Shown: positions 1,239 to 7,371 of the stretch, in pieces
Layout of the letters: each line of letters opens with the position of its first letter
Position numbering within the stretch: position 1 is the first letter of the stretch
Source: an uncultured Clostridia bacterium
GTDB lineage: Bacteria > Bacillota > Clostridia > Oscillospirales > Ruminococcaceae
Direction of reading: 5' to 3'
Assembly (NCBI GenBank): GCA_947165805.1
Contig: CAMVBT010000039.1
Coordinates: 1 to 12,356 of the forward strand
DNA: 12,356 bases
Made by a program: the position numbers and the translations under genes
Notes under the pieces: generated by a model
What the model was told of the DNA's origin: nothing
Databases searched by the model: none
The model's input: only the letters and a program-made list of their open reading frames with translations

Positions 1239-2519
1239 TCAGATCGCAGCAAAGCCCTTTTCGAGATCGGCGATTATATCGTCGATGTGCTCTGTGCCTA
1301 TCGAAAGACGGATAGTAGCCTGAGTTATTCCCTGATCCGCGAGCTCCTGCTCCGTAAGCTGTGAGTGAGTTGTTGTCGCGGGGTGGATAACAAGCGATTT
1401 GACATCGGCAACATTCGCAAGAAGTGAGAATATCTCAAGATTGTCGATAAATCTGTGCGCCTCGGCCTGACCGCCCTTGATCTCAAATGTGAAGATGCTT
1501 CCGCCGCCGTTCGGGAAATATCTCTGATAGAGCGCGTGGTCGGGATGATCGGGCAGCGACGGGTGATTTACCTTTGCTACTTTCGGGTGCTTCGAGAGGA
1601 ATTCTACTACCTTCTTCGTGTTCTCGGCGTGTCTTTCGAGACGCAGGGACAGAGTTTCCGTACCCTGCAGCAGCAGGAACGCCGCAAACGGAGATATTGT
1701 CGCGCCCTCATCGCGGAGCAGTATTGCTCTGATATATGTAACGAATGCAGCGGGACCTACCGCGTCCGCAAAGGAAATACCGTGGTAGCTGGGGTTCGGG
1801 GCTGCTATCGGAGCATATTTTCCGCTTGCCTTCCAATCGAACTTGCCGGAATCAACGATAACGCCGCCGAGGGTCGTTCCGTGACCGCCGATGAACTTAG
1901 TAGCGGAATGAACCACGATATCCGCGCCGTGCTCTATGGGACGGATAAGGAACGGAGTACCGAATGTGTTGTCTATGACGAGAGGTAAGCCGTGCTTGTG
2001 AGCTATCTCCGCAATAGCGTCGATATCCGGTATGTCGCTGTTCGGATTGCCGAGAGTCTCAAGATAGATAGCCTTTGTGTTGTCCTGAATGGCATTCTCT
2101 ACTTCCGCAAGGTCATGCGCGTCAACGAATGTGGTCTTTATACCGTACAGAGGCAGTGTATGTGCAAGAAGATTGTACGAACCGCCGTAAATGGTCTTCT
2201 GCGCTACGATGTGCTCACCTGCGGTCGCGAGAGCCTGTATAGTGTATGTTATTGCAGCGGCACCGGAGGCTACAGCAAGTGCTGCGACACCGCCCTCAAG
2301 AGCGGCTATCCTCTTCTCGAACACGTCCTGTGTCGAGTTCGTGAGTCTGCCGTAGATGTTGCCAGCGTCAGCAAGTCCGAATCTGTCGGCTGCGTGTTTG
2401 GAGTTCTTGAATACATACGATGTGGTCGCGTAGATCGGCACCGCTCTTGCGTCGGAGGCGGGGTCGGGCTGTTCCTGTCCTACATGGAGCTGTAAGGTTT
2501 CAAATTTATAGTTCGACAT
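1239..2519 (-). CDS. metY: O-acetylhomoserine sulfhydrylase (PLP-dependent, Cys/Met metabolism family)
   Basis: This cytoplasmic enzyme is predicted to condense O-acetylhomoserine with sulfide to give homocysteine, the direct sulfhydrylation route to methionine. Some homologues can also act on O-acetylserine. Its 426 residues match the usual length of the MetY branch. Visible motifs are IYGRLTNST (55-63, phosphate-binding Tyr/Arg region), GNPNSDIPDI near 158-166, VIDNTFGTP (181-189, Asp183 expected to contact the pyridine nitrogen) and SATKFIGGHG (205-214) with Lys208 as the Schiff-base lysine. The ATG at 2519 has AAAGGA upstream. It is monocistronic, lying between a promoter and leader ORF upstream and a strong terminator downstream. 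The protein contains no cysteine at all and no methionine beyond the initiator, which is very unusual for its length and suggests sulfur-sparing selection. Close alternatives are cystathionine gamma-synthase or methionine gamma-lyase, but the length and the N-terminal FETLQLHVGQEQPDP pattern favour MetY. Confidence 0.93.
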   Translation of the reverse strand: MSNYKFETLQLHVGQEQPDPASDARAVPIYATTSYVFKNSKHAADRFGLADAGNIYGRLTNSTQDVFEKRIAALEGGVAALAVASGAAAITYTIQALATAGEHIVAQKTIYGGSYNLLAHTLPLYGIKTTFVDAHDLAEVENAIQDNTKAIYLETLGNPNSDIPDIDAIAEIAHKHGLPLVIDNTFGTPFLIRPIEHGADIVVHSATKFIGGHGTTLGGVIVDSGKFDWKASGKYAPIAAPNPSYHGISFADAVGPAAFVTYIRAILLRDEGATISPFAAFLLLQGTETLSLRLERHAENTKKVVEFLSKHPKVAKVNHPSLPDHPDHALYQRYFPNGGGSIFTFEIKGGQAEAHRFIDNLEIFSLLANVADVKSLVIHPATTTHSQLTEQELADQGITQATIRLSIGTEHIDDIIADLEKGFAAI

Positions 2520-2546
2520 AATATTTATTTCCTTTCGTTTTGTGAA

Positions 2547-2601
2547 GATGTTGTTTTGTTGTAATGTGTTTTATTGTTTCTTACGCCTTATAAACAACAT
2601 C
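2547..2601 (-). promoter_or_regulatory. 10-bp inverted repeat overlapping the Cys codons of the metY leader ORF
   Basis: In the minus-strand transcript GAUGUUGUUU (plus-strand 2592-2601) is perfectly complementary to AAACAACAUC (2547-2556), with a 35-nt loop. The first arm covers codons 20-23 of the leader ORF, including both adjacent UGU Cys codons. The second arm ends 27 nt before the metY ATG, just upstream of its ribosome site. A ribosome at or near the end of the leader ORF would prevent this helix from forming. No U-tract follows, so this is not a simple terminator. Function is inferred only. Confidence 0.5.
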
Positions 2602-2659
2602 GGCACATTCGTCCGAAACGGAAATTCGCTCTTACGAGTTTTTCAAACGTGTTCTGCAT
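2588..2659 (-). CDS. 23-residue Cys-rich leader peptide upstream of metY
   Basis: This short ORF lies wholly within the metY 5' leader. It opens with ATG preceded by an excellent ribosome site (AGAAGGAGACAAT) about 32 nt after the predicted transcription start, and it ends with TAA 68 nt before metY. The peptide begins MQNTFEKLVRANF and ends RFGRMCRCCL, so its last six residues carry three cysteines and the preceding residue is methionine. It has five arginines, one lysine and no hydrophobic signal segment. Its position, strong translation signals and terminal run of Cys codons fit a regulatory leader peptide whose translation reports cysteinyl-tRNA supply. Short Cys-rich leader ORFs acting as cysteine-responsive attenuators are known in mycobacteria. 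The claim for this organism is inference. It is too short for ordinary gene finders and could be missed. Confidence 0.72.
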   Translation of the reverse strand: MQNTFEKLVRANFRFGRMCRCCL

Positions 2660-2673
2660 ATTGTCTCCTTCTC

Positions 2674-2693
2674 ATATCTAATTAGTAGGATAT
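2674..2693 (-). promoter_or_regulatory. Candidate operator at the metY transcription start
   Basis: A 20-bp imperfect dyad spans the predicted start site and early transcribed region. Its outer arms are ATATC (2674-2678) and GATAT (2689-2693), and it encloses the perfect palindrome CTAATTAG (2678-2685). On the minus strand the core reads CCTACTAATTAG, which resembles operators of Rrf2-family regulators (the CymR/IscR type) that control sulfur metabolism in Bacillota. The match is by eye and the regulator is not in the window. Confidence 0.35.
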
Positions 2694-2697
2694 ATAC

Positions 2698-2726
2698 ATT
2701 GTAGCACGCTTTTACTATTTTGTCAA
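2698..2726 (-). promoter_or_regulatory. sigma-A promoter for the metY leader transcript
   Basis: On the minus strand a perfect -35 box TTGACA (2721-2726) is followed after exactly 17 nt by TACAAT (2698-2703), one mismatch from the -10 consensus. Transcription should begin near 2691. Upstream of the -35 box is a very A/T-rich tract that may serve as an UP element. Confidence 0.88.
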
Positions 2727-2733
2727 TAGGTTT

Positions 2734-2761
2734 TATAAAAATTTTTTAAAAAATTTTTATA
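2734..2761. repeat. 28-bp perfect A/T palindrome upstream of the metY promoter
   Basis: The sequence consists of A5-T6-A6-T5 (2737-2758) flanked by TAT and ATA, and is perfectly self-complementary over 28 bp with no spacer. It lies 7 nt upstream of the metY -35 box and about 19 nt after the comF stop codon. Plausible roles are an UP element or bent DNA boosting the metY promoter, or a weak GC-free terminator for comF. It contains no GC pairs, so it is not a normal intrinsic terminator. Confidence 0.6.
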
Positions 2762-2779
2762 CGCTTGACTGAATATATG

Positions 2780-3535
2780 TTATAAATATTTTGAAACAAA
2801 ATCGGTATCGCTTATCTCATCCTCATATTCCGCCTCCGGTATATCGTCCGGAGGACTGCTGTGTTTGTTCGGAGTCTTTGCAAAGGAAGCGGCGTACACC
2901 TTCGCGGCACCGTTTTCTTTCAGGACACGCGCTGCTTCGGCAAAGGTGCTCCCGGTCGTGCATACATCGTCGATGAGCAGGAATGTCTTACCATTGATGC
3001 TTCCGTACTTCGGATCTGATGCAAACGCGTCCTTCAGATTTTTCGAGCGCTCTTCCCTGCCGAGTGACTTCTGCGCCGCGGTGTCGCGTATTTTTATAAG
3101 CACATTCGCATAGGGTACTCCTATCATATAGCGCAGTTCCTTCGCCATAAGCTCCGCCTGATTGTAGCCGCGCTCTTTCAGTTTCTTCTTTGACATAGGT
3201 ATCGGGACTATACAGTCTATGTCCTCCGGCATACCGGAGCTTTTCAGCGCCATTCTGATGCGGTACGCAAAGGCATAATAGCTGTTGCCGCGGTCGGTGC
3301 GCTTGAAACGAAGTATGACCGGCGATATATTCTTATCATAAACGCAGTACGCCGTAAATCTGTCAACAAAAGGTATATCCGCTGTTCCCTCATATACTGT
3401 CATGCTGTCCGCGCACTCCGGGCAGAAGTCATTGTTCCAGCCTATATAATTCCTGCATATCGGACAGCGATTCGGATAGAACCAGTCAAGGATATACCGA
3501 TAGACCTTATGTAGTTTTGATCTGTCAATATTCAT
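2780..3535 (-). CDS. comF: ComF family protein (ComFC-like, phosphoribosyltransferase fold)
   Basis: This belongs to the ComF/GntX family, which pairs a zinc ribbon with a type I phosphoribosyltransferase domain. In transformable bacteria ComFC helps bring single-stranded DNA into the cytoplasm. In orphan settings like this its role is unclear. From the ATG at 3535 it has 251 residues, normal for the family. Cysteines at 24, 27, 38 and 41 form the CPIC...CPEC zinc site. RGYNQAELMAKEL (about 122-134) and QKSLGREERSKN (155-166) are family signatures, and FLLIDDVCTTGST (185-197) is the PRPP-binding loop. The acidic C-terminal tail (PEAEYEDEISDTD) is not part of the core domain. The start is uncertain: neither the ATG nor an in-frame TTG at 3550 has a visible ribosome site, and the ilvC terminator sits directly upstream. 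No comFA partner is present in the window. Confidence 0.88.
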   Translation of the reverse strand: MNIDRSKLHKVYRYILDWFYPNRCPICRNYIGWNNDFCPECADSMTVYEGTADIPFVDRFTAYCVYDKNISPVILRFKRTDRGNSYYAFAYRIRMALKSSGMPEDIDCIVPIPMSKKKLKERGYNQAELMAKELRYMIGVPYANVLIKIRDTAAQKSLGREERSKNLKDAFASDPKYGSINGKTFLLIDDVCTTGSTFAEAARVLKENGAAKVYAASFAKTPNKHSSPPDDIPEAEYEDEISDTDFVSKYL

Positions 3536-6732: not shown

Positions 6733-7371
6733 TCAATGTTTTTTTCTTGCTATCGGTATCCTTATTACCGTTTTCAGCTTTTCCGCGGCCGTTTTCCGCG
6801 GGTCGCCGAGATATATCTCATGATGCCGGCGTGTTTCTCCTATATCGGTCTCAAAGCCCTGCGCTCCGATGAACTCATTCATTTTTTCAACGGTCGCAGG
6901 CTCGTCATCGTATGAGCCAATGTGCATACACTGCACACACAGCCTCTCATCGTAGGTAAAAAACTCCGCAGCGGAAAAATCACTTTTCTTCTTCGCCGAC
7001 GTCTCATTTACCGCCCAGTCGAAGTCAGCCTTCGTTACAAAATCGGGCAGTCTTATCATCGAGATCCACTCGAGCTTATCCTTGCGGGAATAGTCCATGC
7101 CGGCAATTCCCTCCTGCTGCCACAGACCTTCGAGCGGAGGCACTACAAAATCAAAATAGCCGTCTATCCGGTGATCTCCCTTTTTGCTCATTTTTATCAT
7201 ATAAGAAACACCGTACAGTATCTCCATGGCGCGTTTGTATTCGCCGTCAGGCTCGTTCGGATCACCTTTGCCGCGTACAGCGACGAAGTTCATCGCCGGT
7301 ACCGTGACAATAACGGGCTTGTCCTTCGGCAGATAGAATTCCCTGTATTCCTTTTTGTAATCAAACGCCAT
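6733..7371 (-). CDS. GyrI-like small-molecule-binding domain protein
   Basis: This 212-residue soluble protein belongs to the GyrI-like (SHS2/BacR effector-binding) superfamily, whose members bind small hydrophobic or cationic ligands and in some cases hydrolyse or sequester them. It has no DNA-binding domain, so it is not a full regulator. Family-typical stretches are PAMNFVAVRGKGDPNEPDGE (25-44), YMIKMSKKG (57-65), FVVPPLEGLWQQEG (75-88), ERLCVQCMHIGSYDDEPAT (141-159) and the C-terminal HHEIYLGDPRKTAAEKLKT. The ATG at 7371 has GGAG 6 nt upstream. Its TGA stop lies inside the ribosome site used by ilvB (TTGAGGTGAT), so the two genes are closely linked and probably translationally coupled. 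It follows pyrD by 68 nt with no terminator seen. The ligand is unknown, and the location invites the idea of a metabolite link between pyrimidine and branched-chain synthesis, which is only inference. Confidence 0.85.
   Translation of the reverse strand: MAFDYKKEYREFYLPKDKPVIVTVPAMNFVAVRGKGDPNEPDGEYKRAMEILYGVSYMIKMSKKGDHRIDGYFDFVVPPLEGLWQQEGIAGMDYSRKDKLEWISMIRLPDFVTKADFDWAVNETSAKKKSDFSAAEFFTYDERLCVQCMHIGSYDDEPATVEKMNEFIGAQGFETDIGETRRHHEIYLGDPRKTAAEKLKTVIRIPIARKKH

Follow-up and report, generated by a model that had tools for sequence, protein, structure and literature searches.

Judged by sequence comparison, the short open reading frame (ORF) upstream of metY in the window (the whole analyzed stretch of 12,356 nucleotides) is real and conserved and is one member of a widespread, so far unnamed, group of Clostridia leader peptides that precede metY and MetQ/MetN-type genes. 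With a probability of about 0.6 we interpret this leader as a translational attenuator, which, according to the modeled folds, would be switched on by a ribosome pausing at Arg-Met-(Cys/stop).

Overall organization of the metY leader

The leader ORF, MQNTFEKLVRANFRFGRMCRCCL, comprises 23 codons followed by TAA and contains three cysteines (C19, C21, C22) and two methionines (M1, M18), at the place where a preliminary description of this DNA had put it. The near-consensus promoter and the good ribosome binding site claimed there were found as well (Table 1), and the ORF indeed stops 68 nt before the start of metY at position 2519. The metY product scored 632 bits against TIGR01326 (cut-off 495.1), which confirms its identity. 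A promoter scan returned three promoter-like sites versus 1.1 expected in shuffled sequences, so that the scan by itself lends the promoter weak support. A scan of window positions 2200–3000 found no intrinsic terminator (0 terminator-like sites). Transcription attenuation was rejected for the window leader, as no terminator-like site lies between the leader and metY.

Table 1. Features of the metY leader region (positions in the window).
Feature	Position	Strand	Basis
Leader ORF	2588–2659	minus	Read from sequence; conservation in relatives
Shine-Dalgarno (SD) sequence of the leader ORF, AGAAGGAG	2665–2672	minus	Read directly; 5 nt before ATG
Promoter TTGACA-17-TACAAT, TG before second hexamer	2698–2726	minus	11 of 12 matches; block conserved in genus relatives
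metY, O-acetylhomoserine/O-acetylserine sulfhydrylase, presumed regulated gene	1239–2519	minus	TIGR01326
CGA-ATG-TGC codons (Arg17-Met18-Cys19), near-invariant proposed pause site	2603–2611	minus	Comparison and folding simulation
Anti-SD segment in Asn-Phe-Arg-Phe codons, predicted to pair with metY SD region	2614–2625	minus	Predicted fold and permutation
Upper stem, 5' arm, Cys-rich tail codons, predicted to pair with 3' arm	2592–2601	minus	Predicted fold
Upper stem, 3' arm, between leader stop and metY SD	2547–2556	minus	Predicted fold
metY SD region CGAAAGGAAAT, masked by the anti-SD in the predicted fold	2527–2537	minus	Predicted fold and permutation

The -35 region (2714–2730, minus strand) lies within a near-palindrome, which reads CCTATTGACAANATAGG in most relatives and is conserved in the genus (L036–L042, L056, L057). 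A similar promoter occurs at another host locus (L002), before a gene that resembles by eye a ThiS/MoaD-type sulfur carrier. Both observations suggest an extra sulfur regulator acting at the DNA level. Elsewhere in the window (6733–7371, minus strand), a 212-residue protein without NCBIfam match is encoded between ilvB and pyrD.

Distribution and downstream genes

When 99 genomes were searched with the leader DNA, 12 gave matches, including the window's own. The preliminary description had looked to close relatives for conservation of the peptide, and its core indeed recurs there, upstream of metY in seven of the 11 other genomes (L036–L042) and before a lipoprotein gene in three (L043–L045; gene names assigned by eye in both cases). 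The last match (L046) was dismissed as an unrelated short match at metK. The metK leader of this same-genus genome resembles a SAM riboswitch by eye; the genus may therefore use both systems.

The back-translated pattern NFRFGRMC was found in 11 of 71 genomes of the genus (reversed control: 0) and in at least 119 stretches of a species-genome collection, five of which were judged to be chance matches and one of which is cut at the contig start. Among the matches listed, the record titles of this collection are mostly Clostridia; two convincing members (L075, L105) are in records whose labels are Spirochaetaceae and Treponema. Members from named strains include those of Eubacterium coprostanoligenes ATCC 51222 (L126) and Pseudoflavonifractor phocaeensis An858 (L133). 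Together, the two scans yielded at least 130 matches, which became 127 after removal of three duplicates; dropping the six chance or cut matches as well left a set of 121 leaders among the matches listed. A script located a downstream ORF for 119 of the 127 matches listed and none for eight (seven at the end of a stretch, and L088). Among the matches listed, these 119 ORFs comprise 94 metY-like genes (BLAST), 14 members of one lipoprotein cluster, two ABC ATPases, one permease, two cysteine-synthase-like genes (L132, L174) and one metF-like gene behind a metY remnant (L171); five of the 119 follow matches judged to be chance (L071, L090, L128, L161, L173). The five lipoproteins of the cluster that were scanned are all of NlpA/MetQ type (PF03180), and L101 matches MetQ models below their cut-offs. 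Both ABC ATPases carry a NIL domain; that of L148, the one scanned with NCBIfam, matched MetN below the cut-off (396.7 of 499.7 bits).

Of the 295 genomes of the order, 48 contain a wider pattern that ends at CGA-ATG, compared with none for the reversed control. In the class it was present in 22 of 391 genomes, of which 19 lie outside the order, and the reversed control hit two genomes. With a slightly narrower pattern, two of 398 genomes in a phylum sample were hit, namely the window and a probable chance match (L265). We read 20 class loci, of which 18 lie before metY and two before a MetQ-like lipoprotein gene (L348, L350; named by eye). One of them, L339, belongs to the order; the 19 others are divided 17 to two.

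Several loci show unusual arrangements. At L174 and L171 the leader stands before a metY remnant: in the former its reading frame continues into the final metY codons, ahead of the cysteine-synthase gene, and in the latter metY breaks off after a few codons. In six loci (L068, L083, L095, L100, L121, L159) the leader ORF and the metY start overlap by 1 to 40 nt, so that ribosomes running on would cross the metY SD. At L299 and L300 the leader is followed by a small ORF, YezD/DUF2292-like by eye, and then by an SsuC-like permease operon. Starting at the pause site, the members of a long-tail subfamily (L087, L116, L120, L291, L293, L297) read approximately RMxx[SD]R[AT]xxMAGxxxAP, which gives their tails a further conserved motif.

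Selection on the leader codons and the CGA-AUG site

Residues outside the searched motif are kept in the 121 leaders among the matches listed (Arg in 120, Leu in 107, Phe in 104), with many synonymous codons. At positions where the first search left the codon free, the ratio of nonsynonymous to synonymous single-base differences between close pairs, which are not independent of one another, was 0.13 of the random expectation; a value of 0.04 is biased downward because it includes the searched codons. The synonymous bias anticipated as a sign of a genuine peptide is therefore present. By comparison, the leader codons are shown to be under protein-level selection, which supports a conserved, translated regulatory ORF.

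A second set of 113 metY upstream regions (53 + 60) was chosen by metY homology instead of the leader, with 24 lower-scoring metY places left out. In the 160 nt upstream of metY the commonest hexamer is CGAATG, found in 56 of the 113 regions; shuffled sequences gave 6.3 (maximum 13 in 200 rounds), so that part of the 56 occurrences is expected by chance. In some of the other 57 regions it lies farther up (L181, L184). The codon that follows CGA-ATG in the 56 regions is TGA in 23, TGC in 17, TGT in 10 and another in six. Among the matches listed, the Arg of Arg-Met is encoded by CGA in 118 of 121 leaders, in a search that allowed any Arg codon; in the downstream genes CGA accounts for 34 of 1284 Arg codons (2.6%). 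The tRNA-Arg genes found in the host carry the anticodons ACG, CCG and CCT, and no UCG was seen among the 20 tRNAs of this assembly, which is 80% complete.

The residues before Arg-Met range from NFRFG, NFRNG and NFRCG to the unrelated KQLND and QRRYC, and leaders with unrelated bodies (KQLNDRM-stop, QRRYCRM-stop, GTDRMC, GLWRMC) have Arg-Met alone in common. There are single exceptions to the site: L196 has RR in place of the RM of its relative L195, and L188 has GRM but no CGAATG. Cysteine makes up 101 of 435 tail residues (23%) versus 0.3% in the body, in agreement with the earlier statement that it is concentrated at the end. The first Cys is lost in the close relatives L040–L042, whose tails read RMRRC, RMRRC and RMYRC before the stop; it is thus dispensable, though one Cys stays.

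Predicted pairing of the leader with the metY SD

The window leader folds with a predicted energy of -33.5 kcal/mol (z = -2.7), a value reached by two of 200 shuffled sequences. In this fold the anti-SD segment is paired with the metY SD region, and the Cys-rich tail codons with the spacer behind the leader stop. For 145 of 161 loci, with leader and gene within 130 nt, SD-leader pairing was 0.489 with the native leader, 0.185 with a shuffled and 0.331 with a swapped one. In the 112 loci that remained when redundancy was filtered at 85%, the leader-SD duplex scored -8.18 versus -6.83 for mismatched pairs, which 0 of 10,000 permutations reached; for a control leader segment the count was 2838 of 10,000. 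Separated by type, it was 5 of 10,000 for stop-type leaders (12 loci) and 0 for Cys-type leaders (92 loci), and the pairing was weaker for leaders with other bodies (303 of 10,000; 21 loci). The pairing of tail and spacer is also locus-specific (0 of 5000 permutations, 109 loci).

These comparisons show the Asn-Phe-Arg codons to be a predicted anti-SD matched to each gene's own SD, and the tail codons to be matched to the spacer, in what would be one long hairpin. The 8-mer CGAATGTG is directly complementary to the spacer only weakly (92 of 5000 permutations), and hairpin pairing alone therefore does not explain its constancy. The suggestion that the peptide body itself matters holds in part: NFRFGRM is conserved, but some of the conservation of NFR is due to anti-SD pairing at the RNA level.

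Simulation of ribosome positions

We masked the footprint of a ribosome on the leader and calculated the openness of the SD by folding. Over 112 loci it was 0.36 for the free leader, 0.54–0.59 with P-site codons from -9 to +1 (Met), 0.48 at +2, 0.47 at +3 and 0.39–0.42 from +4 on. In the window, the SD is predicted to be unpaired at 0.24 in the free leader and at 0.65–0.86 for positions -8 to +1, with 0.77 when Arg or Met occupies the P-site; the values past Met are 0.42 (+2), 0.45 (+3), 0.24 (+4), 0.25 (+5) and 0.33 (+6). Arg-Met would thus be the last place where a paused ribosome keeps metY fully open. The scan sets this 3' limit in the model and does not single out Arg-Met as the pause place; a simulated pause at many earlier codons opens the SD as well.

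Proposed mechanism

Taking folding and comparison together, we suggest the following course of events. A ribosome with its P-site on the last codons up to and including the AUG would cover the anti-SD and leave the metY SD open; over the next two codons the SD would partly close, and from the third codon on the gain would be nearly gone. A shortage of methionine, and hence of Met-tRNA at the AUG, would cause a pause at Arg-Met and translation of metY. In Cys-tailed members such as that of the window, a shortage of Cys-tRNA at the next codon would also pause the ribosome. With plentiful methionine and cysteine the ribosome would run on and the SD would stay closed. CGA, which is presumably read by an inosine-bearing tRNA-Arg, may sharpen the pause.

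The pause signal is probably a shortage of methionine and/or cysteine. Methionine is favored by the constant AUG, the UGA-type leaders without Cys tail and the MetQ/MetN-type targets, and cysteine by the Cys content of the tails. An amino-acid ABC operon (L142) and the sulfonate-type permease operon (L299, L300), all named by eye, point to sulfur status in general. We place joint reading of both amino acids ahead of methionine alone or cysteine alone; sensing of methionine alone leaves the frequent UG directly after the AUG unaccounted for. Against the attenuator as a whole stand the weaker anti-SD statistics of the other-body leaders, the 57 of 113 metY upstream regions without CGAATG within 160 nt, the 247 of 295 order genomes without the wider pattern and the exceptions L196 and L188.

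A more specific proposal, to which we give somewhat less than an even chance, is that CGA-AUG-UGN acts as a programmed codon-level pause. With a weak inosine-A pair in the P-site, it would gauge Met-tRNA (and Cys-tRNA) at the codons that follow, for the most part independently of the nascent chain. Coupled to the anti-SD within the codons, it would stand in for SAM riboswitches and T-boxes at metY and metNIQ-type genes throughout Clostridia.

The odds of the competing readings overlap. An unlikely but serious one has the same SD hairpin as output and differs from the attenuator in the sensor only: FEKLVRANFRFGRM in the exit tunnel would stall the ribosome at Arg-Met on a small sulfur metabolite (e.g. 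O-acetylhomoserine, SAM or methionine). The conserved Phe, Leu and Arg upstream of the searched motif in the NFR group, whose codons vary at the low ratio given above, are in line with such nascent-chain arrest, as is the stop right after Met, which resembles arrest at termination. In the NFR group the peptide is conserved past the pause codons, but in the other-body leaders it is not; Arg-Met, the one element those leaders share, and the strict CGA codon, which a peptide alone leaves unexplained, argue against arrest. The preliminary description had instead favored control of metY by pausing at the tail Cys codons, taken here as the sole control. The strong enrichment of Cys in the tail fits this idea, and so does the simulation for a ribosome waiting at the first Cys (0.77) or, partly, at the second (0.45 versus 0.24). 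Waiting at the third Cys, however, opens nothing (0.24, as without a ribosome), the first Cys is absent from L040–L042, and the tail is no constant element, since among the 56 metY-centered leaders Arg-Met is followed by UGA in 23, by a Cys codon in 27 and by some other codon in six. We consider Cys-tRNA attenuation by itself rather improbable, although sensing at the Cys tail survives as a part of the attenuator proposed here.

That CGAAUGUG is a binding motif for a protein or RNA and the ORF incidental would agree with the constancy of this 8-mer while the bodies change. The mostly synonymous variation of the leader codons makes it very unlikely, as does the reading frame: all 22 leaders outside NF[R/K]xG, a few of which (such as L011 and L212) are clearly its relatives, have an SD and a start codon in the frame of the site, versus 0 and 1 for the other two frames. 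For the 111 NFR leaders a script gave 88 in frame versus 6 and 2. A frame-independent RNA motif was rejected on these counts. The alternation of TGA and TGY at one position would also be expected of a selenopeptide family with selenocysteine at the UGA after Arg-Met. This has next to no probability and is largely refuted by the scarcity of selA, which exceeded the cut-off in one of 18 genomes and gave any match in two, 14 of the 18 having been picked for stop-type leaders.

Comparison with known systems

Methionine genes of Bacillota are commonly controlled by SAM riboswitches and T-boxes. These serve the same kind of gene in the same slot, but, as previously stated for this leader, none was found: Rfam at gathering scores gave no match in the window, and neither element turned up in the 100 metY upstream loci tested out of 113, where the only matches were tRNA, L10 leader and cobalamin riboswitch, none of them in a metY leader. 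A leader known to Rfam was therefore rejected for the window and these loci.

In erm/cat-type attenuators, pairing of the leader hides the SD of the next gene and a stalled ribosome exposes it. Here, comparison points to a short leader ORF that is translated from an SD of its own. By prediction and permutation the leader would pair with the SD of the downstream gene and mask it, and in the simulation a stalled ribosome would uncover that SD. The present family differs in its methionine and sulfur targets, in the location of the anti-SD within the leader codons and in the fixed codons CGA-AUG-UGN. TnaC and SpeFL are leader arrest peptides that stall the ribosome in response to a small molecule. 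They share with this family a conserved leader peptide, which in many members ends directly behind its key residues, whereas across all bodies only Arg-Met, with a fixed codon, is common here.

Mycobacterial polycysteine leader ORFs have reportedly been described by Canestrari in 2020. They are likewise short ORFs that lie ahead of sulfur genes and have Cys toward the C-terminus, but 23 of the 56 metY-centered leaders here stop right after Met. PMC13236596 states the attenuator principle and places cysteine genes of M. smegmatis behind polycysteine leaders under translation attenuation. For Actinobacteria, Cys-codon leaders without clear terminator were predicted upstream of cys operons, an arrangement similar to that of the window; this is another phylum, and the relevant part of that article describes no anti-SD (PMC1262725).

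The actinobacterial NF042934 family (R-x-HVDLGRM) and a Streptomyces plasmid example (L261, RRHVDLGRMSSAICR) are in register by eye with R-x-NFRFGRM. The Arg codon of L261 is CGC, not CGA. Three family peptides had no NCBIfam or Pfam match with the HMMER filters on, which is harsh for peptides of 20 residues, and with the same filters gave 0 matches at E up to 10 to NF042934, NF042933, NF042936 and the Cys-rich leader families. In the host genome, the NCBIfam Cys-leader models produced one match below the cut-off, away from the window. As there is no model match and the Arg codon differs, we do not claim membership in the NF042934 family and reject it for the three peptides. The open-licence PMC literature yielded no mention of FRFGRM, of HVDL in cysteine leader peptides or of a Clostridia cysteine leader peptide tied to O-acetylhomoserine.

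The leader-peptide family is thus not represented among the tested models of Rfam, Pfam and NCBIfam. As a codon-level pausing site, CGA-AUG-UGN would have a sensing rule that is directly testable by synonymous changes. The family may explain how methionine and sulfur acquisition is controlled in many gut Clostridia in which no known riboswitch was found.
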